A stretch of DNA of 36,084 bases from Bacteroidales bacterium (GTDB lineage Bacteria; Bacteroidota; Bacteroidia; Bacteroidales; UBA932). Every line of letters starts with the position of its first letter. Position 1 is the stretch's first letter. Location of the stretch: NCBI GenBank assembly GCA_017459075.1, contig JAFUDQ010000045.1, positions 1 to 36,084 of the forward strand, read 5' to 3'. Positions 6,057-34,434 of the stretch are shown in pieces. The translations under genes and the position numbers were made by a program. The notes beneath the pieces were generated by a model, which searched no databases, was not told the origin of the DNA, and saw only the letters and a program-made list of their open reading frames with translations.

Positions 6057-6129
6057 ATTTGCTTGAATTAATGGATTAATCTAAAGTTTTTTTTTTAATT
6101 TGAGGCAAGTTATCAAAAACTTTCGAATT

Positions 6130-10649: not shown

Positions 10650-10686
10650 TTTAACTTAGCAAATTTTGCCAAGTTGAAATGTGTAA
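10642..10686 (+). repeat. REP-like 45-bp palindrome, copy D, overlapping the RAYT stop codon
   Basis: Diverged copy: TTACGTGATTTAACTTAGCA then AATTTTGCC and AAGTTGAAATGTGTAA. The change from GCA to TGA in the left arm creates the transposase stop codon (10647-10649). The left arm no longer pairs perfectly, although the right arm has one partly matching change (GTGTAA). Left flank AGCTAG is shared with copy A; right flank TTGATTTTCAATA with copy C. Confidence 0.88.
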
Positions 10687-10728
10687 GTAATTGATTTTCA
10701 ATAGAAGCTTATATCGGAGTGTGTGAGG

Positions 10729-10767
10729 AGATTTCTCCACGCGCCCTTCGGGCTTGGTCGAAATGAC
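10729..10767 (-). repeat. GTCATTTC...GAAATCT small palindromic repeat
   Basis: Minus-strand copy of the 39-base unit seen at 1121-1159, with 36 of 39 positions identical. It lies in the 180-base gap between the RAYT gene and comF, together with REP copy D. That two unrelated repeat families sit in this gap marks it as a tolerated insertion site. Confidence 0.88.
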
Positions 10768-10829
10768 AAGGGGAAAGGTTGAAGTTGTTGAATTATGTGG
10801 TTTGTTGAGGCAAAAAGAATATAGGTGCT

Positions 10830-11897
10830 ATGAGGCTATTCGGGGCGATAAGGGATGTGCTGATTCCGGCGAAGTGCGCGGTGTGCGGGCGGGTGCTGCT
10901 TCGCGATGAGTGGCATCTTTGCCTTGGGTGCCTTGCGGATATGCCGCTGACGTTTTTCTGGATGACCCCGCACAACAAGATGGCGGATGCCTTCAATGAT
11001 TTGATACAGAGGTCTTTGGCCGATGACGCTCCGTATGAACCGTATTCCCGTGCTACGGCTTTGTTCTATTATCAGGGGGAGTACGAGCATCTTACCAAGG
11101 CGGTAAAATACGGCGGCAACGCCGCGCTCGGCATCTGGCTAGGCCAGATGCTGGGGCGGCGGCTGTTGGCTGCCGGCTTTTCCGGGGCGACAGCCCCGAC
11201 CGAAAAGCCCGCGGCGTTGCCGCCAAAGCCCGGAGGGATACCTTTTGGGGTTGGCGGAATGCCGCCGGTGACGGCGGTGGTGCCAGTGCCGCTGCACTGG
11301 AGGCGGCGCTGGAGACGTGGCTACAATCAGGCGGAGCTTATAGCAAGGGGCGTGGCGGAGGCCATCGGTGCTCCGCTGCGGACGGACATCCTGCGCAAAG
11401 TACGGTCTACCGGCAGCCAGACCAAGCTCAGCCACGAGGAGCGCCTGGCGAACGTCGCGTCCGCCTTCAGGGCCGACGGGGCGGCACTGGCTTCGCTCCA
11501 GAGTAGATTTCCGGTCAAGCCGGGAATGACGGAAGCGGTGCCCGGAATGACGGAAGCGGTGCCCGGAATGACGGAATCTGGCCCGGGAATGACGGAAAGG
11601 GAACCGGGAATGACGGAAGCGGAACCGGGAATGACGGAAGGGGTGCCGGGAATGACGGGGAATGTCATTCCGAGCGTAGTCGAGGAATCTCATATCCTTT
11701 TGGTAGATGATGTGTTTACCACGGGGGCGACCTTGTTTTCCGCCCGGCAGGCCCTTTTGGCGGCAATGGGTGACAGATTCCCGGTCAAGCCGGGAATGAC
11801 GGAAGCGGGCCCGGGAATGACGGAAGCGGCCCCGGGACAGACAGCTGTCAAGCCCGGATTAAGGATTTCAGTAGCGACCCTGGCTTATGCCCAATAA
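10830..11897 (+). CDS. comF: ComF family phosphoribosyltransferase-like protein with repeat insertions
   Basis: Homologue of the ComF/GntX competence-associated protein; normal length is about 230 residues, here 355. In order: a zinc-ribbon with Cys16, Cys19, Cys31 and Cys34; the phosphoribosyltransferase core with VVPVPLHWRRRWRRGYNQAELIARG (151-175); and the PRPP-binding loop ILLVDDVFTTGAT (289-301). Extra length is in three places: about 117-146 (GC-rich palindrome), about 224-286 (PGMTEAV-type heptads) and about 313-344 (PGMTEAG-type). Each insertion keeps the frame and lies between core strands, so the protein may still fold. In other bacteria ComF acts in DNA uptake; that role here is by homology only. 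Confidence 0.85.
   Translation: MRLFGAIRDVLIPAKCAVCGRVLLRDEWHLCLGCLADMPLTFFWMTPHNKMADAFNDLIQRSLADDAPYEPYSRATALFYYQGEYEHLTKAVKYGGNAALGIWLGQMLGRRLLAAGFSGATAPTEKPAALPPKPGGIPFGVGGMPPVTAVVPVPLHWRRRWRRGYNQAELIARGVAEAIGAPLRTDILRKVRSTGSQTKLSHEERLANVASAFRADGAALASLQSRFPVKPGMTEAVPGMTEAVPGMTESGPGMTEREPGMTEAEPGMTEGVPGMTGNVIPSVVEESHILLVDDVFTTGATLFSARQALLAAMGDRFPVKPGMTEAGPGMTEAAPGQTAVKPGLRISVATLAYAQ
11112..11224. repeat. Nested GC-rich inverted repeats inside comF
   Basis: GGCGGCAACGCCGC (11112-11125) is the exact reverse complement of 11211-11224. Between them GGCTTTTC (11175-11182) pairs with GAAAAGCC (11202-11209), and CGGGGC (11183-11188) pairs with GCCCCG (11193-11198). The inner hairpin encodes residues GFSGATAPTEKP, which are not part of the usual ComF core. 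Confidence 0.7.
11505..11690 (+). repeat. In-frame repeat array in comF, insertion 1 (21-bp period)
   Basis: It begins with the palindromic unit AGATTTCCGGTCAAGCCGGG plus AATGAC. About seven units of a 21-base repeat follow (core GGAATGACGGAAGCGGTGCCC, 11523-11657). It ends with GTCATTCCGAGCGTAGTCGA plus GGAATCT (11664-11690). The 21-base period equals seven codons, so copy-number change would not shift the frame. Translated as variants of PGMTEAV. Confidence 0.92.
11775..11860 (+). repeat. In-frame repeat in comF, insertion 2
   Basis: It starts with AGATTCCCGGTCAAGCCGGG plus AATGACGGAAGCGG, the same opening as insertion 1, followed by about two further 21-base units and a fading end around CAAGCCCGGATT. 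It separates the residues MG after the PRPP loop from the last core strand LRISVATLAYAQ. Confidence 0.88.
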
Positions 11898-11952: not shown

Positions 11953-13422
11953 ATGAAGAAGACACTCGTTTACCTTGCAGCACTGCTCCTGACAGCACTC
12001 TCATGCGGAACCAAAGACCCCGGCGCACCCGCCCCCTACGGAACCCTCCCCACCAAAGGCCAGATAGACTGGCAGAGGCAGGAACTAATTATGTTCTACC
12101 ACTTTGGCCAGGCCACATTCTCTGGCTGGGACGGAGAGAACCCCTCCTGCAACGGAAAGCCCTGGACCGCTGAACTCCTGCTCCAGAACTACGCACCGGC
12201 CACCATCGACGCAGACCAGTGGGTAAAAACAGCTGCAGACAACGGCTTCAAGGAAGTAATCATCACCGCAAAGCATCACGACGGCTTCTGCCTCTGGGAT
12301 AATCCGGAGAGCACGGTAGACATCGCCAATGAAAAATGCAAAAACCACACAGACGTTGTGAAAGCCGTTTCAGACGCCTGCGCAAAATACGGTGTAAACC
12401 TTGGCATCTACCTCTCCCCCTGGGACAGGATGATAGAGGCTGCGGGTTATGATATTGATACTTATGAGGTTATGTACAAGAACGCCCTTAAAGACCTCAT
12501 GACAAAATACGGCAAGGTAACAGAGATTTGGTTCGACGGCAACCATGCCGGCGCCTTCAACTGGCCCGCAGTGAACGAGGTAGTCTTCGGCATCAATCCG
12601 GACTGCGTAATCTTCTCCAACGGAGGCCCAGGCTGCCGCTGGGTTGGCAATGAGCAGGGAGAAGCCGGCGAAACCAACTGGTCTACCCTTGACGCCGTCG
12701 GCCGCAAACTCACTCCCGGTCACATGGAAGGAGACTACAAGACTTTCCTTGGTTCAGGAGACGAGGGCGCATCCCGCTGGGTACCGGCGGAAAGCGACTT
12801 CAGCATCCAGCAAATCGGAGACCCCAACGGCTGGTTCTACGGGGCCGATGACCCCAGGAAGACGGCATCGGACCTGATGGACATCTATTACAAAAGCGTC
12901 GGCCGCAACTCCATCTTCCTCATGAACGTTCCGCCGTCTGACAAAGGCGTCATCGACGCAAAAGAAGTTGCAATCATGGAAGAATTCACCCGCATGCGCA
13001 CCGCCGTTTTCGGGACTAACCTGGCCGATGGTGCCACCGTTACCGCCACCAATGTCCGTGGCAGCAAATATGCCCCTGCAAACCTTCTGGACGGGGATTA
13101 TGATTCATATTTTGCAACAGAGGACGATGTCACTGACGTGGATATAGATTTCACTCTTGACGGTGAAAAGACTTTCAACCGCGTAATGCTTCAGGAGTAT
13201 ATCCCTCTGGGACAGCGCGTGAAGGCCTTCTCAATAGCAGTGAAATTTGACGGAGTGTGGACGGAATGGGGTAGCGGAGAAACCACAACAATCGGACACA
13301 AGCGCATCATTCTTGGGGAAACCGTAACTACGGATGCTGTCAAAATATGTATCAATGAATCAAATGCTTGCCCGGTATTGAACGGTTTCGGCCTCTTTAA
13401 TGATACCGTCTCCGGACTCTAA
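11953..13422 (+). CDS. Alpha-L-fucosidase (GH29) with C-terminal discoidin-like domain
   Basis: 489-residue lipoprotein (signal peptide ending LLLTALSC) that should hydrolyse terminal alpha-linked L-fucose. GH29 signatures: FYHFGQATFSGWDGEN, the substrate-contacting AKHHDGFCLWDNPES, and WFDGNHAG with the probable nucleophile Asp195. The RWVGNEQGEAGETNWSTL segment resembles the region holding the acid/base in GH29 subfamily B, so 1,3/1,4-fucosyl linkages are plausible but unproven. Residues from about 350 (GTNLADGATVTATNVRG onward) look like an F5/8 type C carbohydrate-binding domain. A paralogue follows 110 bases downstream. Confidence 0.92.
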   Translation: MKKTLVYLAALLLTALSCGTKDPGAPAPYGTLPTKGQIDWQRQELIMFYHFGQATFSGWDGENPSCNGKPWTAELLLQNYAPATIDADQWVKTAADNGFKEVIITAKHHDGFCLWDNPESTVDIANEKCKNHTDVVKAVSDACAKYGVNLGIYLSPWDRMIEAAGYDIDTYEVMYKNALKDLMTKYGKVTEIWFDGNHAGAFNWPAVNEVVFGINPDCVIFSNGGPGCRWVGNEQGEAGETNWSTLDAVGRKLTPGHMEGDYKTFLGSGDEGASRWVPAESDFSIQQIGDPNGWFYGADDPRKTASDLMDIYYKSVGRNSIFLMNVPPSDKGVIDAKEVAIMEEFTRMRTAVFGTNLADGATVTATNVRGSKYAPANLLDGDYDSYFATEDDVTDVDIDFTLDGEKTFNRVMLQEYIPLGQRVKAFSIAVKFDGVWTEWGSGETTTIGHKRIILGETVTTDAVKICINESNACPVLNGFGLFNDTVSGL

Positions 13423-13495
13423 TGACAGATTATCCGTTTTTGTTACTGGATTTTCCGGAATTTTAAACAGAAAGCGGCTAATAGATTAAAAATAC

Positions 13496-13526
13496 TATGT
13501 ATTTTCTAAAAAAACGTTTAATTTTG
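13496..13526 (+). promoter_or_regulatory. Possible internal promoter giving a nearly leaderless mRNA
   Basis: TAATTTTG (13519-13526) is a perfect -7 box; 19 bases upstream TATG (13496-13499) is a weak -33. Transcription would begin about at the ATG at 13533. This argues for 13533 and against the in-frame ATG at 13497 as start. Confidence 0.4.
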
Positions 13527-13532
13527 CACCCT

Positions 13533-15578
13533 ATGGTACAAAAAGCGAACGTTTTTTTAATGTGCATTGCCCTTTTTGCGACAATGTCCTGCAGTAGTAA
13601 AGACTCTATTCCAAATGAGCCTGAGTATAAAACAGTTGCAGTAACCGGCGTAACAGTAGGACCAACATCCCTGGAACTGAAAGTTGGGGAAACCGGCCAG
13701 CTCAGCGCCAGCGTAACCCCCAGAAACGCCACCAATCCCGGAGTGAAATGGAATTCAGGAAACACTTCCATTGCAACCGTCGATGGCAACGGTCTTGTAA
13801 CGGGAATCGGCGCCGGCAGCACTGTAGTCGTTGTTGTAACGGACGATGGCAGCTTCAAGGATAAATGCTCCATCGTCGTCAAGGAAGCAGAAAAACCGGT
13901 TGTTCACGTTACCGGAGTCAGCCTTGACAAAACATCCCTGACAATGGAAATAGGGGAGAGTGCAACGCTTACCGCCACAGTTGAACCTGTAAATGCAGAG
14001 AACAAGGCTGTCACATGGTACAGCTCTTCTTCTACCGTTGCTACGGTTTCAGCCGGCAGGGTAACGGCAGTCGCCGCAGGAACAGCTACCATCGGCGTAT
14101 CTACCGTTGACGGAGGATTTACTGCAAGCTGCACGGTTACAGTGAACGCAGGTGCGCCTTCAGACCCAGGAGCACCCACAGCCTACGGCGCAGTTCCTAC
14201 CAAAGGACAGCTCGCATGGCAGCGCCAGGAACTCCTCATGTTCTATCATTACGGCCAGGCAACCTTCTCCGGCTGGGACGGTGAGAATTCAACATGCAAC
14301 GGACGCTCTTGGACAGAAAGCCTTCTGCTCCAGAATTATACCCCTACCACTATCGATGCTGACCAGTGGGTAAAGACTGCCGCAGACAACGGCTTCAAAG
14401 AGGTAATCCTAACCGCAAAGCATCATGACGGCTTCTGCCTCTGGGACAATCCTGAAAGCACAACAGACGTCGCCAATTCCAATTGCAAGAACCATACAGA
14501 CGTTGTAAAGGCCGTTTCAGACGCCTGCACCAAGTACGGAGTGAACCTTGGTATCTATCTCTCACCTTGGGACAGGATGATTGAAGCAGCCGGTTACAGC
14601 ACCTCCCAATATGAGGATATGTACAAAAAGGCCCTCAAGAGCCTTATGACCAGCTATGGCAAGGTAGTTGAGATGTGGTTCGACGGCAACCATGCCGGCT
14701 CCTTCAACTGGTCTGCAGTGAATCAGGTTGTGTACGATGCCAACCCGGACTGCGTAATCTTCTCCAATGGCGGCCCCGGCTGCCGCTGGGTCGGAAATGA
14801 GGCCGGCGAGGCCGGAGAGACCAACTGGTCCACCCTGAACATCAGCGGCCGCGGCCTTTCTCCGAGCAACCTTCCTGGCAACTATGAGTCATACCTTAGC
14901 CAGGGAGACGAGGGCGCTTCTTCATGGTGCCCCGCAGAGTGCGACTTCAGCATCCAGCAGATCGGAGACCACAACGGCTGGTTCTACGGTGCATCGGACA
15001 GCCGCAAGACCGCAAAGGAACTCATGAACCTTTATTACAAGAGCGTGGGCCGCAATTCAGTCTTCCTAATGAACGTTCCGCCGTCCAACAACGGCGTCAT
15101 CGCCTCACAGGAAAAGACTGTCATTGAGGAGTTTACGAGCATGCGTAACAGCATCTTCGGTACCAATCTTGCCGATGGTGCCACGGCAACCGCCACCAAC
15201 GTCCGCGGCAATGTGACGGACAAATATGGCCCTGCCAACATGCTTAACGGCAACTACGATTCTTATTTTGCAACCGACAACAACGTCACAACAGTCGAAA
15301 TCGAATTCAATCTCTCAGGCAGCAAGACCTTCAACAGGGTGATGCTCCAGGAATACATTCCTCTTGGCCAGCGCGTCAGGAGCTTTGAGATTCAGGTTAA
15401 GAGAAACGGCAGCTGGACGTCATGGGGAAATGGTTCAAAAACCACCATCGGCCATAAGAGAATCATTCTTGGCAGCTCCGTTACCACAGATGCCGTGAAG
15501 ATAAGAATCACTGGCTCAAAGGCTTGTCCCGTCCTGAACGGCTTTGGATTGTATAACGACACCGTTTCCGGTCTATGA
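13533..15578 (+). CDS. Alpha-L-fucosidase (GH29) with two N-terminal Big_2 domains
   Basis: 681-residue paralogue of the preceding enzyme, alike over the catalytic and C-terminal regions (same FYHYGQATFSGWDGEN, AKHHDGFCLWDNPES and WFDGNHAG motifs; probable nucleophile Asp384). It adds two bacterial Ig-like group 2 domains, about residues 35-117 and 125-205 (VTGVTVGPTSLELKVGETGQL; VTGVSLDKTSLTMEIGESATL). These may act as a spacer lifting the catalytic domain off the membrane. Start chosen at 13533 because it gives a lipoprotein-like signal (MVQKANVFLMCIALFATMSC); the ATG at 13497 would add a basic stretch that overlaps a -7 box. Its stop overlaps the next gene by 4 bases (ATGA). Confidence 0.92.
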   Translation: MVQKANVFLMCIALFATMSCSSKDSIPNEPEYKTVAVTGVTVGPTSLELKVGETGQLSASVTPRNATNPGVKWNSGNTSIATVDGNGLVTGIGAGSTVVVVVTDDGSFKDKCSIVVKEAEKPVVHVTGVSLDKTSLTMEIGESATLTATVEPVNAENKAVTWYSSSSTVATVSAGRVTAVAAGTATIGVSTVDGGFTASCTVTVNAGAPSDPGAPTAYGAVPTKGQLAWQRQELLMFYHYGQATFSGWDGENSTCNGRSWTESLLLQNYTPTTIDADQWVKTAADNGFKEVILTAKHHDGFCLWDNPESTTDVANSNCKNHTDVVKAVSDACTKYGVNLGIYLSPWDRMIEAAGYSTSQYEDMYKKALKSLMTSYGKVVEMWFDGNHAGSFNWSAVNQVVYDANPDCVIFSNGGPGCRWVGNEAGEAGETNWSTLNISGRGLSPSNLPGNYESYLSQGDEGASSWCPAECDFSIQQIGDHNGWFYGASDSRKTAKELMNLYYKSVGRNSVFLMNVPPSNNGVIASQEKTVIEEFTSMRNSIFGTNLADGATATATNVRGNVTDKYGPANMLNGNYDSYFATDNNVTTVEIEFNLSGSKTFNRVMLQEYIPLGQRVRSFEIQVKRNGSWTSWGNGSKTTIGHKRIILGSSVTTDAVKIRITGSKACPVLNGFGLYNDTVSGL

Positions 15579-16309
15579 GAAATCTGATCCTCCTGCTTGC
15601 CTTGCTTGGTCTTATGGGCGCCTGCGCACCCAAAGACGGTATCCGTACAATGCGTGCATCCACAAGCAAGGAAGTGGACCTTGGAAAAATCAAGGAGATT
15701 GACGGCCCTGTCAAGGTAAGGCTCCTCCTTAGGAATGACTATAAGGATACCCTTTATCCCGTGCAGCTGTACACCCCGTGCGGGTGCACGCAGGCCAGTT
15801 TTGACAAGAAGCCTGTCGCCCCCGGTGAAGATGAGGTGCTGGAAGTAGTCTATAATCCCGCCTACAACCCCGGTCCAATGATGGAGCAGATTCAGATACT
15901 TTATACAAACTCTCCCACGCGCGTGCGCATAATAACTATTAAGGGAGAGGTCATCGGTTACAATCATCCCATAGAAGAAGACCGCCCCTATGCCTTTGGC
16001 GAGGGTTTGTACATGAGCCATAAGGTTCTGAGCTACGGCCTTGTGCGCCCTGGCGACACTTCTGACATGTTCTTCCGCTACGGGAACGGAAACACCGGCT
16101 CCGCCACCGTTGAATTCGAGATTCCGGAGGAGTGGAAGCCCTTCTTCCGCCTTCGCCAGCCCGGTAAGATGAAGGCCGATGAACGTGATACCCTCCATGC
16201 CCGTTTTACTATGCCGATGGGTGTGGACAGCGCTTATTTTGCAGTACGCCCCATTGTGGACGGAAAATATACGGATGAAGTCCTGTCAGTGCGGGCTGTA
16301 TCCAGATAG
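15575..16309 (+). CDS. DUF1573 domain lipoprotein
   Basis: 244 residues with a lipoprotein signal (MRNLILLLALLGLMGAC, Cys17). The N-terminal half is a DUF1573 domain, an Ig-like fold recognised by YTPCGCTQASFDKKPVAPGEDEVLEVVYNP, with the conserved Cys68-Gly-Cys70. The C-terminal half (about 140-244) repeats the style of a second, more degenerate domain. DUF1573 proteins are abundant in Bacteroidetes envelopes, but their function is not known to me. Translation is coupled to the fucosidase by a 4-base overlap, and the SusC gene follows after about 50 bases, so it is part of the locus although it is not a usual PUL component. Confidence 0.8.
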   Translation: MRNLILLLALLGLMGACAPKDGIRTMRASTSKEVDLGKIKEIDGPVKVRLLLRNDYKDTLYPVQLYTPCGCTQASFDKKPVAPGEDEVLEVVYNPAYNPGPMMEQIQILYTNSPTRVRIITIKGEVIGYNHPIEEDRPYAFGEGLYMSHKVLSYGLVRPGDTSDMFFRYGNGNTGSATVEFEIPEEWKPFFRLRQPGKMKADERDTLHARFTMPMGVDSAYFAVRPIVDGKYTDEVLSVRAVSR

Positions 16310-16358
16310 ATAAATGAAAACAAAACCTAAACAAATATTACTACTAATTAAAAACCTT

Positions 16359-19300
16359 ATGAGTTTCCAACTAAAGAAAGTCTTTGCAGGCGCCTTCGCG
16401 GTGCTTGCCGGGCTGTTCCTTGCAGGTGGGACCGCTTTCGCCCAGAACAGGACGATTACGGGTACTGTCACCGACGAGTTCGGTGAACCTCTCATCGGCG
16501 CAAGTGTCATCGTTGAAGGAAACACCAGCGTAGGTGTAATAACAGACCTGGACGGTAATTATTCCATTTCCGTTCCGGCAGACGCTGTTGCACTCCGCTA
16601 TTCCTTCATCGGACAGGAAGACGCCGTAGAGCAGATCGGAGACCGTACGGTTATCAATGTCCAGCTTGCGACGGCATCTACCGTCCTCAATGCGACAGTG
16701 GTAACGGCTATGGGTATCCGAAAAGAGGAAAAATCCCTTTCCTACAATGTTCAGCAGCCGAAACTGGAGAGCGTAAGCCCTGTTGGATCCTTCGTCAACA
16801 GCCTTAACGGTAAGGTTGCCGGAGTTTCCATTAACCAGTCTTCTTCTGGTGTGGGAGGAACCTCACGTATCGTCATGCGTGGTTCCAAATCCATCTCAAA
16901 CAACAACAATGCACTGTATGTGATTGACGGTATCCCTATGCAGTCCCTGCGCGGCTCACAGCCGGAGGGTACCTATGCGGGAGCAGGTCAGACCGGTGAC
17001 GTCCTCGGTACTTTGAACCAGGAAGATATCGAGTCTATCTCCGTCCTCTCAGGCCCTTCAGCAGCGGCTCTTTACGGTGCAAATGCAGCAAATGGTGTCA
17101 TCATCATCACCACAAAGAAAGGTGGAAAAGACCGTTTGGATATTGACTATTCAAACAGCACCATCTTCTCACGTGCCTATGTGATGCCTTCATTCCAGAA
17201 CACTTACGGCCCTACTTCTCCCGGTTCATACTACAGCTGGGGAAGCAAACTGGACACCCCGTCCTCTTACAAGCCGCGTGATTTCTTCCAGACAGGTGTA
17301 AACGAGGTTAACTCTATCGCCCTGTCAACTGGTACCGACCGCAGCCAGACCTATGTTTCTGCAGGTGTGGCCAATGCCCGCGGTATCATCCACAACAACA
17401 ATGTAAACAGGTACAATCTGTCCTTCCGCAACACTACAGACCTTCTCAAAGACGTCCTCACCATGGATATCAATGTAACTTACGGTCGTGTAAGCGAGCA
17501 GAACATGATTTCCCAGGGTGAATATGGTAACCCTGTAGTTCCTGTATACCTCTTTCCTGCAGGAGACGACTTTTCCAAGCTTCAGGTTTACGAGCGTTAC
17601 GACGCCGGCCGTAATTTCAAGACCCAGTTCTGGCCTTATGACTTCATCCAGTCAATGCAGAACCCTTACTGGATTACGGAACACCAGAAATGGCAGAACC
17701 TGAAGAACCGTCTCATGGGCTCCGCACAGCTCTCTTACAAGCCTCTCAACTGGCTCACCCTCTCTGCCCGCGCCAAGTTCGACCGCACGGACGAGAAGCA
17801 GGAGCAGAAGTTCGACGCCGGTACCAACACCCTGTTCACAGAGGGTTCAAAGCACGGTAAATACGGACTCAACAACCAGTACACAGAGCAGAAGTTCGCA
17901 GAGTTCCTTGCCTCCTTCAATAAGTACTTCGGAGACAACGCCTTCAATCTTACCGGTGTAGTTGGTACGAACATCGATGACATCCGTTTCCGTTCAGATT
18001 ATATCAACGGACCTCTTGCCATGGTTAACAACAAGTTCAACCTCAACAACATCGACCGTAGCAGCACCCATACCAATCTTGGTTCAAGCGGATGGCATTC
18101 ACAGAACCAGTCTGTCTTCGCCAACGCCCAGCTTGGATGGCGCAGCAGGGTTTACCTGGATATGACCTACCGTATTGACTGGAACTCTACGCTGTGGACA
18201 GCCGGTGCCATTACTTATCCTACAGTAGGTCTCTCCGGTATCGTCACAGAACTCCTTCCTTTCCTCAAGAGCAGTTTCTTCCCTTATTGGAAAGTACGCG
18301 CTTCTTATTCGGAGGTAGGTAATACTCCCAACCCGGCAGACTTCGCCCTTTATCCTACTTATGCACAGACCAACGGAAGCATCAGCACTGATATCCGCCG
18401 TCAGAATACGGACCTTGATCCGGAGCGCACCAAATCTTGGGAACTCGGTACCAATATCCACTTCTTCGACAGCAAACTCCAGATCGATGCTACCGTTTAC
18501 AACTCCAACACTTTCAATCAGTTCTATACCGCTCGCCTGAGTTCTACTTCTACAAACAGCGGCATGTTGCTGAATGGTGGTAAGGTAAACAACAAGGGTA
18601 TTGAGCTTGCACTCCGCTATGATGATTCCATCGGCAAAGTAAACTTCGGCACTTATGTAACATGGACATGGAACAAGAACACCATCAAGAGCCTCAGCTT
18701 CGTAGATCCTACCGACGGAAAGGTTTACGGACGTGACGGTATCTCCGTAGGCGGCTTCGGCGGTGTGAACAACGTTCTTTATGAAGGTGGTTCCCTTGGC
18801 GATGTTTACGTAACTACAATCGCTACCGATGAAAACGGCTTCTACAAGCAGAATTCTGACGGTATGATTATAGCCGATTACGATGAAAAGGATATGATTT
18901 TTGCAGGTACAACCGATGCCAAGCACCGCCTCAGCTGGGGTGGCCATGTTGGCTGGAACGGTATTACCGCAAGCTTCCTCTTCACCGGCCGCTTCGGTGG
19001 TGTGGCTATCTCAAAGACCCAGGCTGTCATGGATTACTACGGTATCTCCCAGAACACAGCCGACGCCCGCGAGCAGGGTTACTTCATGATTAACGGCATG
19101 AAGAACTACGACATCCAGGGCTACTATCAGGTAATCGGTGCAAACCAGGGCGTAATGAGCCAGTATGTTTACAGCGCAACCAACGTTCGCCTCGCAGAGG
19201 TTTCCGTAGGTTACGACTTCCCTTGCAAGAACTGGGGATGGATCAAGGGCGTCAATGTTTCTGTTGTCGGAAACAACCTTGCAATGCTTTACCTGAAGGC

Positions 19301-19904
19301 TCCGTTCGATCCTGAAATGACCTCAAGTGCAGGTACTTACAACCAGGGCATCGACTACTTCATGCAGCCTTCTACAAGAAGCGTAGGCTTCTCTGTAAAA
19401 CTTAAGTTCGGAGGCAGCACCGCATCCAAGTCTGATGCAGTAGCATCCCACGACACCTATCGTCCCGCCAGAAGCGCCGTAGAGGAGCCTAAGGTAGTGG
19501 AGAAGGTGGTTTACAAGGACAAGGTAGTAGAGAAGGTGGTAGAGAAGGAAGTTATCAAGGAAGTTCCTGCCAAGACTTTGACAGAGACCTACTCTGATGA
19601 TTTGTACTTCATCATCGGCAAAGCCGAAATCCGCCCGGACGAGGCATTCAAGCTCGGCCGCATCTGCCAGATCCTCAAGGACAATCCTGATGCAAAGGTT
19701 ACCATCACCGGCTACGCCGACAGTGGTACCGGAACAGATGAAATCAACCGTGAACTCTCCGGTCAGCGCGCCGACAAGGTTGTTGACATGCTCGTGAGTG
19801 CCGGTATTTCCCGCAGCAGGATAATCAGCTCTTCTTATGCAGGAGACCGCGACGCTTCCAAGAGTCCTGAATTCAACCGTGTTGCTGTATGTATCGTCAA
19901 ATAA
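16359..19904 (+). CDS. SusC/RagA-type TonB-dependent transporter fused to a C-terminal OmpA-like domain
   Basis: 1181 residues. Order: signal peptide (to TAFAQ); carboxypeptidase-like domain (ITGTVTDEFGEPLIGASV, about 33-108); plug (about 140-250, with SRIVMRGSKSI and ALYVIDGIPM); 22-strand-type barrel ending in RSVGFSVKLKF near 1016, the normal end of a SusC protein. The frame continues with a charged linker (repeated VEKVV/KEV, about 1017-1077), then an OmpA-family domain (about 1078-1181) with YFIIGKAEIRP, VTITGYADSGTGTDEINREL and the peptidoglycan-binding signature NRELSGQRADKVVDML. So a glycan importer appears tethered to the cell wall. Start at 16359 follows an AT-rich leader; an ATG at 16314 would add 15 basic residues. 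susD follows after 11 bases. Confidence 0.92.
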   Translation: MSFQLKKVFAGAFAVLAGLFLAGGTAFAQNRTITGTVTDEFGEPLIGASVIVEGNTSVGVITDLDGNYSISVPADAVALRYSFIGQEDAVEQIGDRTVINVQLATASTVLNATVVTAMGIRKEEKSLSYNVQQPKLESVSPVGSFVNSLNGKVAGVSINQSSSGVGGTSRIVMRGSKSISNNNNALYVIDGIPMQSLRGSQPEGTYAGAGQTGDVLGTLNQEDIESISVLSGPSAAALYGANAANGVIIITTKKGGKDRLDIDYSNSTIFSRAYVMPSFQNTYGPTSPGSYYSWGSKLDTPSSYKPRDFFQTGVNEVNSIALSTGTDRSQTYVSAGVANARGIIHNNNVNRYNLSFRNTTDLLKDVLTMDINVTYGRVSEQNMISQGEYGNPVVPVYLFPAGDDFSKLQVYERYDAGRNFKTQFWPYDFIQSMQNPYWITEHQKWQNLKNRLMGSAQLSYKPLNWLTLSARAKFDRTDEKQEQKFDAGTNTLFTEGSKHGKYGLNNQYTEQKFAEFLASFNKYFGDNAFNLTGVVGTNIDDIRFRSDYINGPLAMVNNKFNLNNIDRSSTHTNLGSSGWHSQNQSVFANAQLGWRSRVYLDMTYRIDWNSTLWTAGAITYPTVGLSGIVTELLPFLKSSFFPYWKVRASYSEVGNTPNPADFALYPTYAQTNGSISTDIRRQNTDLDPERTKSWELGTNIHFFDSKLQIDATVYNSNTFNQFYTARLSSTSTNSGMLLNGGKVNNKGIELALRYDDSIGKVNFGTYVTWTWNKNTIKSLSFVDPTDGKVYGRDGISVGGFGGVNNVLYEGGSLGDVYVTTIATDENGFYKQNSDGMIIADYDEKDMIFAGTTDAKHRLSWGGHVGWNGITASFLFTGRFGGVAISKTQAVMDYYGISQNTADAREQGYFMINGMKNYDIQGYYQVIGANQGVMSQYVYSATNVRLAEVSVGYDFPCKNWGWIKGVNVSVVGNNLAMLYLKAPFDPEMTSSAGTYNQGIDYFMQPSTRSVGFSVKLKFGGSTASKSDAVASHDTYRPARSAVEEPKVVEKVVYKDKVVEKVVEKEVIKEVPAKTLTETYSDDLYFIIGKAEIRPDEAFKLGRICQILKDNPDAKVTITGYADSGTGTDEINRELSGQRADKVVDMLVSAGISRSRIISSSYAGDRDASKSPEFNRVAVCIVK

Positions 19905-19915
19905 AGGAGAGCGCT

Positions 19916-21490
19916 ATGAAAATGAAAAATATTATCCTTACCCTTGCCGCTGCCGCTTTTGTTTTTGCAGGCTGTACCAAGGATTTTGAGAATATCAACA
20001 AGAACGATTTCGGCGTAAACGAAGAAGAACTCAGCCAGGACGGTCTTGCCGTTGGCGGTATGCTTCAGCAGCTGGAACGTTCCGTGATTATCTATCGCGA
20101 CGGCAATTATCTGGATTCAGACTATCAGATTATGTACAACCTTTGCGCAGAGACATGGTGCGGTTACATGGCACCGACACTGAGCGATGGTCATCATGCA
20201 GGCTGGGATGTCAATGATGGTTGGCATCGCCGCATGTTCACTGTTAAGTATGAGTACGGAATGGCCGGATATACCGCATTTGTTGCCAAGGCAGAGCCTC
20301 TTGGTCTTGCAAATGAGCTTGCTCTTGCAAAGATCCTGAAGGTTACCACCATGCATCAGGTTGCAGACTATTACGGTCCTATTGCTTATTCTAACATTGG
20401 TTCCATTACCAATATCTATGATCCTCTGGATCAGGTATATACACAATTCTTCAAGGAACTGGACGAAGCTATCGAACTCCTTGAGAAAGTAGCCGGAACA
20501 GGTGCTAAAATCCTGGAAGACTACGATCTTATCTATGGCGGCGACGCTGTTAAGTGGGTTCAGTTTGCCAATTCTCTCCGCCTTCGCCTGGCAATGCGCG
20601 TAAGCTACGCAGACCCTGCCCTGGCACGCGAGGAGGCAGAAAAGTCCATCGCCAGTCCTTTTGGTGTCATCACTTCCAACAGCAACAATGCTGTGATTGC
20701 TGAGGCCGGTGTTCGTCATCCTGACTATACCATCAACGTAGATTTCAACGATGCCGATACCCAGATAGGTGCTTCCCTGGATTGCTATCTTAACGGATAT
20801 AACGATCCCCGTAAGTTCCTGTATGCCAATCCCGCAGGCGACGGAAACCTTCACGGTGTACGTCCCGGTATCACTCCTTCCACATGGTCAAACTACAAGA
20901 ACTCCGCTGCCAAGGTGTCTGCTCCCAACGCCGCAATCTACAAGATTTGCTGGCTGAATGCTGCAGAAGTTGCCTTCCTGCGCGCAGAGGGTGCCCTCAA
21001 GGGTTGGAACATGGGTGGTACTGCTAAGGATTTCTACGAGGAAGGTATCAAGCTTTCCTTCGAGGAATGGGGTGCAGAGGGTGTTAACGCTTATCTGGCT
21101 AACAACTCCGCAAAACCTGCCGCTTTCGCAGACAATGTAGGCCGTTCAAATGCAACTGCTCCCTCTACCGTTACCATCGCCTGGAACCAGAGCGACCCGG
21201 ACGAGGTTAAACTGGAAAAGATCGGTACCCAGAAATGGCTCGCCCTCTTCCCCAACAGCGCAGAGGCATGGGCAGAGTACCGTCGTCTTCACTATCCGGT
21301 TCTCGTTCCCCCGGCAAACAACTATTCCAATGGCGTGGTCAATACCAACCAGGGTATCCGCCGTGTACCTTATCCCGTATCTGAGCAGACCGATAACCCG
21401 GAGGGCTATGCAGCCGGTGTCGCAGCTCTCGGTGGCCAGGATAACGCAGGTGTACGCCTTTGGTGGGATGCAAAGCCTTTTAATAACTGA
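19916..21490 (+). CDS. SusD-like nutrient-binding outer membrane lipoprotein
   Basis: 524 residues; lipoprotein signal ending in FVFAGC (Cys20). The mature start CTKDFENINKNDFGVNEEEL and the helical repeats resemble the SusD-like_2 group; WCGYMAPT, KWVQFANSLRLRLAMRVSYADP and CWLNAAEVAFLRAEGALKGW are typical helices of the fold. SusD proteins form the lid over the SusC barrel and bind the glycan. The ATG at 19916 is preceded by AAAGGAG (19903-19909) at 6 bases, one of the few clear Shine-Dalgarno sites here, and is preferred over the in-frame ATG at 19889 inside the SusC-OmpA end. Partner: the SusC-OmpA fusion directly upstream. Confidence 0.93.
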   Translation: MKMKNIILTLAAAAFVFAGCTKDFENINKNDFGVNEEELSQDGLAVGGMLQQLERSVIIYRDGNYLDSDYQIMYNLCAETWCGYMAPTLSDGHHAGWDVNDGWHRRMFTVKYEYGMAGYTAFVAKAEPLGLANELALAKILKVTTMHQVADYYGPIAYSNIGSITNIYDPLDQVYTQFFKELDEAIELLEKVAGTGAKILEDYDLIYGGDAVKWVQFANSLRLRLAMRVSYADPALAREEAEKSIASPFGVITSNSNNAVIAEAGVRHPDYTINVDFNDADTQIGASLDCYLNGYNDPRKFLYANPAGDGNLHGVRPGITPSTWSNYKNSAAKVSAPNAAIYKICWLNAAEVAFLRAEGALKGWNMGGTAKDFYEEGIKLSFEEWGAEGVNAYLANNSAKPAAFADNVGRSNATAPSTVTIAWNQSDPDEVKLEKIGTQKWLALFPNSAEAWAEYRRLHYPVLVPPANNYSNGVVNTNQGIRRVPYPVSEQTDNPEGYAAGVAALGGQDNAGVRLWWDAKPFNN

Positions 21491-21504
21491 TAATGCTGAA
21501 GGAT

Positions 21505-22641
21505 ATGAAAAAGATATTTTGTTTACTCTCTATCGCCCTTGCAGTCGCAGCTTGCGACACAAAGGAAGAGACTCTTGAACTCCAGCATTTCAAAACGCCG
21601 GGTGTAGAGGAAGATCTTACTGAATCTGATCTGGCTTATTATAAGAATCTGCGTGAGTGGAAAGAGTCCAAGCACACTATTTCTTACGTATATTTCGCCG
21701 CATGGGCTCCGCCGGAGGGTGCTACCAGTCTGTTTATTGAGTATCAGACAATGCGTCCCCGTCTTATCTCCCTTCCTGATTCACTTGATATCGTGAACCT
21801 TTGGATGGGTACTCCTATGAAGCAGGAGTCTACCGACGCATGTTTCTATGGCAACGTCAAGAATCCGGAGACCGGAGAGATTGAGCGTAAGCCTATGAAT
21901 ACTTATGATTATTCTCCCAATGCCTATGCAGACCTTGAGTTCTGCCAGAAGTACAAAGGCACCAAGTTCGTTATGCACGCCGACGCCTCTCACTACGGCC
22001 AGGAGTTCGAGCTTGACGGCCAGTACTGGAAGGTAGAAAGTAACAATGAAGAGTCCATCCGCGCATACGGCCGCCTTGTTGTTGACATCGTCAACACTCA
22101 CGGTCTTGACGGCGTAGACTTCGACTATGAAGGTTGGGGTGGAAATCAGATTTTCTGGGTTATCGATGAGGTTGGAAAATACTTCGGTCCTCAGGGCAGC
22201 GATCCTTCCAAGCTTCTTATCGTTGACTACTTCGGCGGTTATCCCGGCGGAAACATCGAGCCTTACATCAACTATCTTGTAAAGCAGGCTTATTCCGCCC
22301 AGGGTTCTTCTACCGGCGGTCCCAGCTGGTGCCCTGCAGAGAAGATGGTCTACTGCGAGCAGTATGAGCAGTCTTCAGGCGAAGGCCCCAACTACCTTAA
22401 CGGTGGTTATCCTACCGGAAGGACAAACGAGGCCGGAGAAAAAATGTACACACTTGAGTCTTATGCCCGCTATGCTTCAGAGGCTACTGAAGGACTGGGC
22501 GGCGGCTTCGGTGCTTACTACATCGACAATGATTATGCAAACGGTCAGGAAGCCCTTAAAGCAAAGGGTTATGCCAACTATCACTTCGATACCTATGGTT
22601 TCCTGCGTCGTGCCATCCAGATTGTAAACCCTGCCAAATAA
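21505..22641 (+). CDS. GH18 glycoside hydrolase, endo-beta-N-acetylglucosaminidase type
   Basis: 378-residue lipoprotein (MKKIFCLLSIALAVAAC, Cys17). The GH18 motif DGxDxDxE is complete in LDGVDFDYEGWG, with catalytic Glu209 and the assisting Asp207. Size, single-domain form and the SusCD/DUF1735 neighbourhood match surface endoglycosidases that cut the chitobiose core of N-glycans (EndoH/BT1044-like) better than chitinases. A YYIDNDYANG segment near the C-terminus completes the barrel. An in-frame ATG at 21493 is also possible; 21505 gives the standard MKK signal peptide. The stop overlaps the next ATG by one base. Exact glycan type (high-mannose or complex) cannot be read. Confidence 0.88.
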   Translation: MKKIFCLLSIALAVAACDTKEETLELQHFKTPGVEEDLTESDLAYYKNLREWKESKHTISYVYFAAWAPPEGATSLFIEYQTMRPRLISLPDSLDIVNLWMGTPMKQESTDACFYGNVKNPETGEIERKPMNTYDYSPNAYADLEFCQKYKGTKFVMHADASHYGQEFELDGQYWKVESNNEESIRAYGRLVVDIVNTHGLDGVDFDYEGWGGNQIFWVIDEVGKYFGPQGSDPSKLLIVDYFGGYPGGNIEPYINYLVKQAYSAQGSSTGGPSWCPAEKMVYCEQYEQSSGEGPNYLNGGYPTGRTNEAGEKMYTLESYARYASEATEGLGGGFGAYYIDNDYANGQEALKAKGYANYHFDTYGFLRRAIQIVNPAK

Positions 22642-23900
22642 TGAAGACTATGATGAAAAAATACATGTTCATTGCTTTGGCAGCCGCTTTCTGCATGACT
22701 GCATGCACTCAGACTGCCGATGATTTCGAGTATGGAAAAGAAATCGTCCTCATTACCGGAACAGATTCTTCTCCTATTTCTTCAGACCAGATCCTGGCCG
22801 ATGAGATTCCCGTTTCCTACAACTTTACCGTTTCCACTACCGGAATCGTAAAGAAGGATACAAAGATTCACATCAGCTATGACAGCAAGGCTGTGGAAGA
22901 GTACAATGCCCGTTACAAGACCAGCTATGTGGCAGTTCCCCGTGATGTATTCGTAATCAACGACGAGTATGTTACCATCGCCGCAGGTACCGCAACATCG
23001 GCAATGACTTCCGTAACCCTGCGTGACAATACTTTCATCGAGGAAGGTGTCAATTATGTAATTCCTCTTGCTGTGGCTTACTCAGAAACCGGCAAACCGG
23101 ACATCCTCAATGCTTCCAAGAACCTTTTCATCAAGATTGGAAAGACTATCGAGAGCTACTCCCTGGATATCACCGGTACCGGCATCTACAGTACTTACAG
23201 CTATGGAAACAATGGCTACGACCTTAACAACTGGACCCTTGAAATCAAGGCTCATCCTTACAACATGAAGAGCCGCGGCAGCGATCAGCTTTGCCGTCTC
23301 TGCTGCTGGAATGAGGATGGCGGCGGCCAGGTGCTCCTCCGTTTCAACGAGAACGGTAAGCCTTGGAAGACCCTTGATATCGTCGCTCCTAACGGCCGTT
23401 ATGTTACCGGCGCCATCGGCGAAGGTGATGAGGCTGTGGGTGCTTTCGACCCTAATCAGTGGTATATGATTTCAATCGTATGGGATGGCAGCAGCATGTC
23501 CGTATACATCAATGGCCAGAAGGATACTCCTTGGCAGAACACAATCTCCGGCAACCAGGGCTTCAAGCTCAACCGCTTTGAGATTGGTATGTCATGGGGC
23601 GGCTACGGCAGCTCACAGAGTTACACCGGCCGTATGGCAGAGATGCGTATCTGGAATGTTGCACGCAGCCAGAGCGACATTGCTTCTACCCTCTGCTCTG
23701 TAGACGCCAAGTCTGCAGGTCTCCTTGGCTACTGGAAGATGAACGAAGGCGAAGGCCATATCTTCCACGACTCTACCGGTTCCAACGATATGGACTGGGA
23801 CCGCTCAGAGCGTCAGGCCGATGAAACCAATTACACCAACACCGGTGCCGGAAATTCCGTATCTTGGGTGAAGGATGAAAAGAACAAGTGTGCACAATAA
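22641..23900 (+). CDS. DUF1735 and LamG domain surface glycan-binding lipoprotein
   Basis: 419 residues; lipoprotein signal ending MTAC (Cys22). Residues about 30-165 form a DUF1735 domain (VPRDVFVINDEYVTIAAGTATSAMTSV), the N-terminal module of N-glycan-PUL GH18 enzymes and binders of the BT3987 type. Residues about 175-410 form a concanavalin A-like/LamG domain (LLRFNENGKPWKTLDIV, WYMISIVWDGSSMSVYINGQ, AEMRIWNVARSQSDI, LLGYWKMNEGEG). It lacks catalytic residues and is probably a surface glycan-binding protein in the SusE/F-like position. It begins one base before the end of the GH18 stop codon. Confidence 0.85.
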   Translation: MKTMMKKYMFIALAAAFCMTACTQTADDFEYGKEIVLITGTDSSPISSDQILADEIPVSYNFTVSTTGIVKKDTKIHISYDSKAVEEYNARYKTSYVAVPRDVFVINDEYVTIAAGTATSAMTSVTLRDNTFIEEGVNYVIPLAVAYSETGKPDILNASKNLFIKIGKTIESYSLDITGTGIYSTYSYGNNGYDLNNWTLEIKAHPYNMKSRGSDQLCRLCCWNEDGGGQVLLRFNENGKPWKTLDIVAPNGRYVTGAIGEGDEAVGAFDPNQWYMISIVWDGSSMSVYINGQKDTPWQNTISGNQGFKLNRFEIGMSWGGYGSSQSYTGRMAEMRIWNVARSQSDIASTLCSVDAKSAGLLGYWKMNEGEGHIFHDSTGSNDMDWDRSERQADETNYTNTGAGNSVSWVKDEKNKCAQ

Positions 23901-23918
23901 CGAAAAACTCATAATTCA

Positions 23919-26624
23919 ATGAAAAAATTTCTTACAGCAATCGCAATGGGTCTTGTCCTGTTGGGCTGCAACAAAGAGTATGATGATTCCGAGCTCAAGA
24001 ACAGGATCACTACTCTTGAAACCAAGGTAGGCAACCTTGAGGCTAATATGAAGGCCATCCAGTCCGCTACCAACGACGGTATGTTCGTTCAGAGCGTAGA
24101 GGAACTTTACGAGGATGGAAAAGTAGTCGGTATTACCGTTACTTACACAACCGGAACTGTATATACTTTCCAGATTTCCGGAGCCGGCGCAGAGAACAAC
24201 ATCTCTGTAATTCGCAACTCCAGCGGTGCTCTTTGCTGGGCAATCAACGGAGAAATCATCAAGGTAGACGGCAAAGACCTTACCGTTGGCCAGACTCCTT
24301 CATTCTCAATTGAGAACGGTCATCTTATTGTTACCATCGACGGTAACAAGACCGATGTGGGTCCTGTTTCTGGCGGCCTTGGCGATGCTATCTTCAAGGA
24401 CATCAAGGTTACTGACGATGCAGTTATCCTCACCCTTGATGACAACAGCACAATTGAGATTCCTTTTGCAAAGGCTTTCCGTCTTGTTATTGCAAAGACT
24501 CAGTATGCCGTTACTTCCACCGACCCCTTCGACATTGAGTATACCGTAGACAACAAGACCGCAAGCACTGTTGTTGACGTATTTACCGATGCCAACTATG
24601 AGGCTACTGTAACCGACAGCAAGATTACCATTACTCCTCTCGCAGTAGTAAAGGGTACCGCTCTGGCTTACGCAGACTCAAAGACCGGTCTTACTTCTAT
24701 CGTAAAACTCGTCTTCGACCAGGAAGGTGAGCCTGATACTTTCGAGCCTACAGACGACAAGGCCGATCCTACCAATAACATCGACTATATCGCAGAGGCT
24801 GCAGACGGCAAGGTAGAGGCACACGTTGTTTCCAACATCGCATTTGACGTTGCTCCTCAGGTTGACTGGATTCACTATGTTTCTACAAAGGCCCAGTCTT
24901 ACACTATCACCCTCTCTCTTGATGACAACAAGACTAAGGAAATCCGTACCGGTGAGGTTAAGATTTTCCGTGCAGGCACAGACCAGCTCCTCCAGACCTT
25001 CGTAATTGCCCAGAAGGCTTCCGAGGTTGAGATTGAGAACTACAATCCTGCCGGCTGGACAAAGGTATTCGACATGTCCAACTATAAGGTTAACTCTACC
25101 TTCAAGTGGGACGGTATCCAGCTTAACCCTGGTGCTGTTACTCTCCAGTGGAAGTTCTACTCCAACAAGTGGAATAACCATAAGTTCAATGACAGGGATG
25201 CCAACAACAACCAGCTTTACTGCAACCGTCTTGGTGAGTTTGCCAACTCTGACGAGTCCCAGTCTGTACTCCTCCGCTTCTCCAACGATGGTGACGCTGA
25301 CGGACAGCTTTGCCTCAATGCAGGTATTCTTGGAATCAACCAGGTTCAGATTGCAAAAGATGGCAAGGCTTATGTATGGCCTACCGGCGAATGGGTAGTT
25401 CTTACTATCGTTTCCGATGGTTCAAAGGTTTCTATCTATCATAACGAGGAACTCGTAAATGCTTATAATGCTAACCCTGGTACTTCATGGAATCTCCAGC
25501 GTTTCGATCTCTCTATGACTTGGGACGACGGCAGCAACTGGCCTCTCAAGCAGGCATTCAACGGTTACTCTGCTTATACACGTGTTTGGAGCCGCGCTCT
25601 TAGCGTAGAGGATATCGCTGCAACTCTTTGCGACGTTCCTTCAGACAAGACAGAAGGCCTTGAGGCTTACTGGAAGTTCGACGGTTCTACAGACAAGTAC
25701 GTTACCAACTCTGCTCCTAAGAACAGCAGTATGGAGCTTGACTTCACAGACTGCTGGGACGGAAACGGAAAAGCTCAGGATAACAGCGACGCTGCTGTAG
25801 CTGCTTGGAAGGCTCTTGAGGGCGCAGACTTCACCGGTCTCTGCTATCGTGAGAAAGGAACAGGCGACGACAACCCTGGCGGTGGTGACAACCCTGGTGG
25901 CGGTGATGAGAAGGTTAAGGCTACCTATTGGGGCAATGCTCAGGCAGCTGCCTGGTACAAGGCTTTCAACAGGGCTGTTTCTCTTCCTGACGGCTATTCA
26001 GTAACAATCCACTTCTATTATGATGCTGCAAGACAGCAGCGCCTTGGCAACTTCGGTGACAAGAACGAGGCTCCTTGCAACATGCTTCGCTTTGGTGAGG
26101 CTGGCAACAACAACCAGCTTGAGTGGATGGTTGATACAGGCGGTGGCCGTGTTAAGATTCGTGCAAGCAAAGAAGCTGTTCCCGGCCAGTGGAATGCTGT
26201 TACCCTTACAGCAGGCGCTGATGGATACAAGATGTATATCAACGGTGAGGCTGCCGGTTCAGATGCTTCTGCTTATCGTTCTGGTACTTCCTTCCAGGCT
26301 ATCGAGTTCGCTAACTCATGGGGTACTGCATACCGTTCTTCATTCGAGGGCGCTATCGCTTACATCTCCCTGTGGAGCAAGCAGCTCAGCGAGACTGAGG
26401 TTGCAGCAAACGTATTCTGCGAGCCTAGCGGCACCGGTCTTGAAGGCTTCTGGCCTATGACCGAGGGCGAGGGTGCTACCTTCTATGACAAGACCAAGAA
26501 GTATGACGATATCGACCTCCGCTACATGACCCGCTGCGATGATGAGACCAACTATGTTGATGTTGACGTTTCCTCTTACGTAGAGTGGAGAGAGTATCCC
26601 GCTATCAAGAAAGCTGCAAACTAA
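23919..26624 (+). CDS. DUF4988 multidomain surface lipoprotein with two LamG domains
   Basis: 901 residues; lipoprotein signal ending LLGC (Cys17). A short coiled coil (SELKNRITTLETKVGNLEANMKA split at about residues 24-45) and beta-rich region to about 250 are of the DUF4988 type. Next comes an Ig/BACON-like part (about 275-385). Two LamG/concanavalin-like domains follow, at about 390-640 (YWKFDGSTD near its end) and about 675-890 (GYKMYINGEAAG, GFWPMTEGEG), joined by the flexible linker NPGGGDNPGGGD. The end DETNYVDVDVSSYVEW parallels DETNYTNTGAGNSVSW in the preceding protein, showing common origin of the LamG units. Likely a long surface binder; the coiled coil could drive trimerisation. 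Confidence 0.85.
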   Translation: MKKFLTAIAMGLVLLGCNKEYDDSELKNRITTLETKVGNLEANMKAIQSATNDGMFVQSVEELYEDGKVVGITVTYTTGTVYTFQISGAGAENNISVIRNSSGALCWAINGEIIKVDGKDLTVGQTPSFSIENGHLIVTIDGNKTDVGPVSGGLGDAIFKDIKVTDDAVILTLDDNSTIEIPFAKAFRLVIAKTQYAVTSTDPFDIEYTVDNKTASTVVDVFTDANYEATVTDSKITITPLAVVKGTALAYADSKTGLTSIVKLVFDQEGEPDTFEPTDDKADPTNNIDYIAEAADGKVEAHVVSNIAFDVAPQVDWIHYVSTKAQSYTITLSLDDNKTKEIRTGEVKIFRAGTDQLLQTFVIAQKASEVEIENYNPAGWTKVFDMSNYKVNSTFKWDGIQLNPGAVTLQWKFYSNKWNNHKFNDRDANNNQLYCNRLGEFANSDESQSVLLRFSNDGDADGQLCLNAGILGINQVQIAKDGKAYVWPTGEWVVLTIVSDGSKVSIYHNEELVNAYNANPGTSWNLQRFDLSMTWDDGSNWPLKQAFNGYSAYTRVWSRALSVEDIAATLCDVPSDKTEGLEAYWKFDGSTDKYVTNSAPKNSSMELDFTDCWDGNGKAQDNSDAAVAAWKALEGADFTGLCYREKGTGDDNPGGGDNPGGGDEKVKATYWGNAQAAAWYKAFNRAVSLPDGYSVTIHFYYDAARQQRLGNFGDKNEAPCNMLRFGEAGNNNQLEWMVDTGGGRVKIRASKEAVPGQWNAVTLTAGADGYKMYINGEAAGSDASAYRSGTSFQAIEFANSWGTAYRSSFEGAIAYISLWSKQLSETEVAANVFCEPSGTGLEGFWPMTEGEGATFYDKTKKYDDIDLRYMTRCDDETNYVDVDVSSYVEWREYPAIKKAAN

Positions 26625-31266: not shown

Positions 31267-31268
31267 GC

Positions 31269-33101: not shown

Positions 33102-33102
33102 G

Positions 33103-34433: not shown

Positions 34434-34434
34434 T

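Follow-up and report, generated by a model that had tools for sequence, protein, structure and literature searches.

Glycan uptake in gut Bacteroidota is carried by SusCD importers. The TonB-linked transporters of the SusC/RagA family (TIGR04056), of which BT2261-2264, BT1762-1763 and RagAB have been solved, normally stop at the last strand of the barrel. In this paper we describe a gene of a Bacteroidales bacterium whose product resembles these transporters in matching the full family profile, in its plug and carboxypeptidase-like domains, in the susD gene that lies behind it and in its 5fq6-like predicted fold, but which continues beyond the barrel with a linker and an OmpA-type domain. The gene lies on contig JAFUDQ010000045.1 of assembly GCA_017459075.1, and we refer to the whole stretch analysed, 36,084 nucleotides (nt) long, as the window. 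We find that it belongs to a family of fused genes, and we interpret their linker-OmpA module as a recombining 3' anchor cassette, present in two sampled genera and carried by a minority of the SusCs in the six genomes counted.

Recombination among susC paralogues is a feature that the fused family shares with the invertible SusC loci, or shufflons, of Bacteroides. Shufflons are site-specific inversions, however, whereas in the fused family the 3' domain is exchanged, and between species too. The closest relatives of the module itself are the stand-alone OmpA proteins of Bacteroidota (about 360-450 amino acids), which consist of a small barrel, a linker and an OmpA domain; some of them have linkers similar to that of the fused module, but they carry a small barrel where the fused proteins have a SusC transporter. 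Pal has a peptidoglycan-binding fold in common with the fused domain, but it is a short lipoprotein rather than a barrel transporter, and the window protein stays below the threshold of the Pal model TIGR02802 (39 bits against a cut-off of 125, from the domain only). PorE, a lipoprotein associated with the type IX secretion system, shares with the fusion its outer membrane location and the presence of carboxypeptidase-like and OmpA-like domains, and its structure is among the fold matches given below; it lacks a barrel, however, and the window protein is no full-length match to the PorE model NF052230 (45 bits against a cut-off of 600, from the OmpA domain only). In PMC12204202, PorE is proposed as a wall tether or Pal substitute in Bacteroidota, canonical Pal is given as not detected in the phylum, and the tether between outer membrane and wall is treated as unsettled. 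According to PMC12611786, a separate OmpA anchors the outer membrane of F. johnsoniae, and OmpA and a SusC complex are the two most abundant outer membrane components there. We found no description of a SusC-OmpA fusion in the open-access literature, as judged by titles and the openings of abstracts. The SusC and OmpA halves are known families; what seems to be new is that they are joined and, above all, that an anchor is exchanged among importers.

An initial annotation of the window, made from the letters alone, had described one uninterrupted frame with a complete SusC protein, a charged linker and an OmpA domain, and profile searches bear this out (Table 1). The frame of 1196 codons matches TIGR04056 end to end, with 595 bits against a cut-off of 368, over profile positions 1-981 and protein residues 46-1032; its N-terminal part is a full SusC, and not the small barrel of an outer membrane protein of the OmpA/OprF type. 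The Pfam families Plug and CarbopepD_reg_2 are also matched ahead of the OmpA domain, which itself matches PF00691 at residues 1098-1183 (56.6 bits against a cut-off of 27.2, profile positions 1-87 of 98). The protein runs on for 164 residues past the end of the SusC profile, and so is without the usual stop at the last barrel strand. In a comparison set of 39 unfused SusCs, drawn from six of the genomes with fusions, the phenylalanine of that strand is the C-terminal end in 37. The gene likely starts at ATG 16359, as first annotated, rather than at ATG 16314, because its orthologues L012 and L016 begin at the corresponding methionine. The methionine preceding the lipoprotein signal of susD stands at 19916, which is 11 bases past the fusion-gene stop, the spacing given earlier; since the gene is intact and has susD directly behind it, its description as the working SusC of the locus also stands.

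Scanning the genomes of the species with the C-terminal part of the window protein gives 26 loci, 23 of which are open reading frames (ORFs) of 1081-1397 codons joining a SusC-like part to an OmpA module, while the other three are OmpA proteins of 380-428 codons; for 13 of these 23 fused ORFs, the record gives a ruminant as host. Of 400 genomes in the genus to which the window belongs, at least 41 carry an ORF of 900 or more amino acids with the module, a lower bound taken from listed matches that reach down to about 108 bits. A sample of the family (299 genomes in 25 genera, E up to 1e-25) contains such ORFs only in this genus and in a second one, g40, together with one gene (L031) that has no genus assignment. 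Samples of the order (393 genomes, E up to 1e-20) and of the phylum (395 genomes, E up to 1e-16) contain none outside the family, the window's own genome being the only one matched, at cut-offs too strict to register fusions with unrelated OmpA domains. In the own genome, one of 12 SusC loci over the cut-off is fused, with a redundant contig counted once. In five other genomes the fused genes number 9 of 36, 3 of 36, 6 of 17, 7 of 21 and 7 of 20 SusC matches, or 32 of 130 together, a tally that includes fragments and one apparently duplicated contig. The redundant contig, C38, holds a second copy of the fusion, is 36,084 bp long like the window and is identical to it over two stretches compared. 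The observation concerns contigs C22 and C38 of the own genome; C38 is probably redundant and raises the contamination value of the assembly, and we do not treat its copy as independent evidence for the fusion.

We collected 106 distinct fused ORFs, which come from 43 genome labels. All 106 match a SusC model that was built from 24 family members, some of them among the 106 themselves, with a lowest score of 560.7 bits and a coverage of at least 0.82. Omitted from the collection are G093:C81, G093:C80, G135:C11 and G012:C37, as well as frames cut by contig ends (in G159 and G094, and one each in G027 and G184). Three g40 genes were used in trees only, and L009-L022, L024-L027, L029 and L030 are not counted under these labels, the same genes having been re-entered with G handles. 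Directly behind each of the 106 genes lies an ORF of 405-693 amino acids that starts between -16 and +38 nt from the stop codon. A lipobox-like motif is found in 104 of these downstream ORFs under a loose pattern, and the 84 that were scanned with Pfam give overlapping matches to SusD-like_3 (63), SusD_RagB (61), SusD-like_2 (47) and SusD-like (15). The initial annotation had named a frameshift or an assembly join near 19400 as a possible flaw, which the existence of 106 distinct ORFs with this architecture makes very unlikely; its picture of a single odd protein gives way to that of one member among many in a recombining SusC gene family.

In one fused barrel group (L154, L157, L161, L163, L164, L168 and L189) the genes are about 1081-1095 codons long. 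The profile matches of the three members examined begin only at SusC position 100-107, so that these lack the carboxypeptidase-like domain; the group has unfused orthologues of 913-919 codons in three genomes. L131 and L149 have near-identical barrels of the window type, but the frame of L149 from its first methionine is about 61 N-terminal residues shorter, perhaps owing to a frame break or a late start.

The relationship between module and barrel was assessed over 5565 gene pairs. For barrels less than 30% identical, the modules are 58.7% identical, the SusDs 17.3% and the last 108 barrel residues 24.0%; for barrels at least 75% identical, the corresponding values are 70.9%, 79.3% and 83.1%. 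In these sequence comparisons, then, the identity of the module is nearly independent of that of the barrel, while SusD and the barrel end track the barrel. Spearman correlations with barrel identity amount to 0.20 (module), 0.52 (SusD) and 0.66 (barrel end), or to 0.33, 0.45 and 0.60, respectively, when computed for the 83 V-type genes. In 29 of these 83 genes, the module nearest in sequence is carried by an unrelated barrel (<40% identity), compared with 4 of 83 for the nearest SusD. Even where an orthologous barrel is on hand, the nearest module is still found on an unrelated barrel in 23 of 76. Homogenisation within genomes was considered as the main cause of this pattern and rejected: for barrels less than 30% identical, modules are 60.2% identical within genomes and 58.7% between them, and so homogenisation is not general, although single cases exist (L121/L125 and L213/L214).

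The DNA itself delimits what is shared. Along five pairs of genes with unrelated barrels, identity is mostly 40-60% over the barrel and 79-96% in the last two 50-codon windows. Genes whose barrels are less than 40% identical to each other give 2731 blastn matches; counted from the stop codon, these have start quartiles of -405, -375 and -312 nt and end quartiles of +2, +3 and +25. The common DNA is thus a cassette of roughly 310-410 nt that typically finishes at the stop codon. The clearest example of exchange, as read from sequence, is L148. Between L148 and L197, the barrel DNA is about 98% identical and the SusD proteins 97%, but the modules only 64-68%. With L146, whose barrel is unrelated, L148 has 414 nt in common that are 90% identical and end at the stop codon. 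The exchanged module is thus flanked by the cognate barrel of L148 on one side and its cognate SusD on the other. The genome of L148 yielded two further fused modules, which are only 62 and 69% identical to that of L148, and this makes an assembly mix-up with them unlikely. Since the cassette is swapped while barrel and SusD stay, recombination would be needed at both of its edges.

Trees of the OmpA domain place the fused modules together. A quick tree built from 109 fused and 41 stand-alone domains puts the fused ones on one side of a branch with a support of 98 in the Shimodaira-Hasegawa-like approximate likelihood ratio test, and the fused clade has a support of 99/90 in a more careful tree for which 39 fused domains were combined with 23 stand-alone ones. 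A split uniting this clade with 14 stand-alone proteins of the same family has a support of 96/76; L260, a stand-alone protein from the same genus on a long branch, lies outside it. By contrast with this single module clade, single linkage at 50% identity divides the SusC barrels of the fused genes into 24 groups; 15 have several members, 9 are single, and four contain unfused members too. A FastTree tree of the barrels requires 17 changes between the fused and the unfused state, 14 of them forced by starred branches.

The predicted structure is that of an OmpA-like domain on a flexible tether. An AlphaFold model of the C-terminal 167 residues, made with 24 relatives, shows a disordered linker followed by a beta-alpha-beta-alpha-beta domain, with a ten-residue mean confidence of 80-97 over the last ~104 residues. 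A Foldseek search of the PDB matches the domain to OmpA-like domains, including those of OprF, PorE (6top), 9uu2 (template modelling score 0.87 by target length) and 3td5, a structure that contains a peptidoglycan peptide (0.76 by the same measure). The OmpA fold proposed earlier for the last 104 residues is thus recovered in the model. The full-length model, which we use only for the order of its elements and for its fold match in view of a mean predicted local distance difference test score of 62.8, matches SusC structures, 5fq6 best. The Asp of GYAD and the Arg of LSxxRA, which we take to be diaminopimelate ligands, are kept in 106 of 106 fused ORFs, as are the Thr, Asn, Leu and last Arg of the motif. 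The V-type modules have a median ratio of nonsynonymous to synonymous change (dN/dS) of 0.31 (2488 pairs with a synonymous difference of 0.05-0.6). Subtracting profile ends gives a linker of 65 residues for the window, and of about 54-79 for the fused genes of five other genomes. At least three VEK/KEV-like repeats occur in the linkers of 96 of the 106 fused ORFs, and the remaining ten linkers are Ala-rich. The ten genes L207-L216 form a sub-group of fused SusCs in which an Ala-rich linker replaces the VEK linker on a related OmpA module.

Given this fold and these conserved residues, wall binding is the likely function of the fused domain. The chain of an outer membrane barrel emerges from its last strand into the periplasm, which would leave the fused domain facing the wall. 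We consider it probable that the product of the window gene is a SusC glycan importer anchored to peptidoglycan in the periplasm, and that the anchor module is copied as a 3' cassette by recombination. The chain would re-enter the periplasm after the last strand, the flexible linker would span the distance to the wall, and the OmpA-like domain would tie the SusCD complex to the sacculus by binding the diaminopimelate stem peptide. The module most likely arose a single time, from a stand-alone barrel-OmpA protein found in the same bacterial family. Homologous recombination would then have copied it as a cassette onto many unrelated susC genes, where it would occupy the stretch from barrel end to stop codon. 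As to the benefit, we can only guess that anchoring steadies the transporter against the pull of TonB, supplies extra envelope tethers or keeps chosen importers out of vesicles. The initial annotation also proposed that the domain might hold the barrel near TonB.

Several observations weigh against this interpretation. Fused SusCs are a minority in the six genomes and orthologues without the module exist, so anchoring must be dispensable for transport. A stand-alone barrel-covering OmpA relative persists in 21 of 41 fused genomes. The cassette's 3' edge is not always sharp, since 866 of the 2731 shared stretches extend more than 10 nt beyond the stop codon. Both the large OmpA-domain tree and the FastTree barrel tree carry long-branch warnings.

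Other explanations account for part of these data. A single ancient SusC-OmpA gene might have descended vertically, with unfused relatives having lost the domain and the domain being merely better conserved than the barrel. The fused modules do form one clade, and the change counts on the barrel tree do not tell gain from loss. Among barrels at least 75% identical, however, the module is less conserved than the barrel end (70.9% against 83.1%), yet it keeps 58.7% identity across barrels below 30%; module DNA reaches 96% identity in single windows of genes with saturated barrels; and in L148 the module has been exchanged while the rest of the gene pair is orthologous. We regard vertical descent as largely refuted and very improbable. 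The domain might instead be a neutral tail, no longer an anchor, which recombines as a genomic repeat. Repeats are expected to recombine and the unfused orthologues are intact, but the median dN/dS, the Asp and Arg present in all 106 ORFs and the narrow range of linker lengths make such a tail quite unlikely. The domain might also bind a different partner in the periplasm, such as a Ton, secretion or assembly component, instead of the wall or besides it. OmpA-like domains are known in multidomain proteins such as PorE; in view of the full conservation of the residues taken to be diaminopimelate ligands, we think this unlikely.

It is also conceivable that fused SusCs replaced stand-alone OmpA as the main wall tether. 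No barrel-covering stand-alone relative was found in 20 of 41 fused genomes, some of which are incomplete. The 21 that retain one rule against a general replacement, and further OmpA proteins persist, such as one of 406 codons in the own genome, so we give replacement very little credence. (The 39 unfused genomes of this check were mostly chosen from genomes without a module match and so do not serve for comparison.) Finally, the sequences come from metagenome assemblies, one with a redundant contig, and the fusion could be an artefact of assembly or gene calling. Against this stand 106 distinct intact ORFs with a SusD-sized gene behind each, the position of the exchanged L148 cassette between its cognate barrel and SusD, and the dissimilarity of that cassette to the two other modules from its genome; the chance of an artefact is negligible.

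If the importer is indeed anchored through an exchangeable module, it would be a transporter-borne tether in a phylum for which PMC12204202 gives no detected canonical Pal. Anchor domains on part of the sugar importers, copied between unrelated importer genes, suggest that some uncultured gut Bacteroidales tie chosen importers to the cell wall. More tentatively, and with more doubt than confidence, we propose that a mobile wall-anchor cassette is installed, removed or replaced by recombination on selected importers, so that the set of importers would fix how and where the outer membrane is tied. The family would also be a clear case of an outer membrane protein that gains and trades a periplasmic domain at a fixed boundary. 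Natural importer orthologues with, without and with exchanged anchors would permit a direct comparison of the effects of anchoring on transporter mobility, TonB-driven uptake, vesicle sorting and envelope strength.

Table 1. Features of the fusion gene and of the surrounding glycan locus in the window.
Feature	Coordinates	Strand	Basis
SusC-OmpA fusion gene	16314..19904 (likely start 16359)	+	frame, Pfam, TIGR04056, orthologue starts
SusC part: carboxypeptidase-like domain, plug, barrel; residues 46-1032	16449..19409	+	TIGR04056, 595 bits
V/E/K-rich linker, residues 1033-1097, predicted disordered	19410..19604	+	between profile ends; AlphaFold
OmpA-like peptidoglycan-binding domain (predicted) and stop	19605..19904	+	PF00691, predicted fold
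susD partner	19889..21490	+	PF12741, 544 bits; in-frame ATG 19889
DUF1573 protein, directly upstream of fusion gene	15575..16309	+	Pfam
GH18 BT1044-like protein, same locus	21493..22641	+	PF16141
Two proteins: BT_3987-like N-terminal and laminin-G-like; DUF4988 and laminin-G-like with weak BACON match	22641..26624	+	Pfam
Two alpha-L-fucosidase-family proteins with F5/8C domains	11953..15578	+	Pfam

Proteins of PF16141 such as BT1044 are placed in complex N-glycan use in PMC11180146, and by analogy our guess is that N-glycan may be the substrate of the window locus. Upstream of the fucosidases lie two proteins without a Pfam match (307 and 355 amino acids; 9726-11897, + strand) and, at 6100-9385 (+), a DUF4249 protein followed by a small TonB-dependent receptor. 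Adjoining the glycan locus on the opposite strand (29851-35457, -) is a cell-elongation operon with MreB, MreC, a PBP2-type transpeptidase and RodA/FtsW, which also holds a protein of 167 amino acids without a Pfam match.

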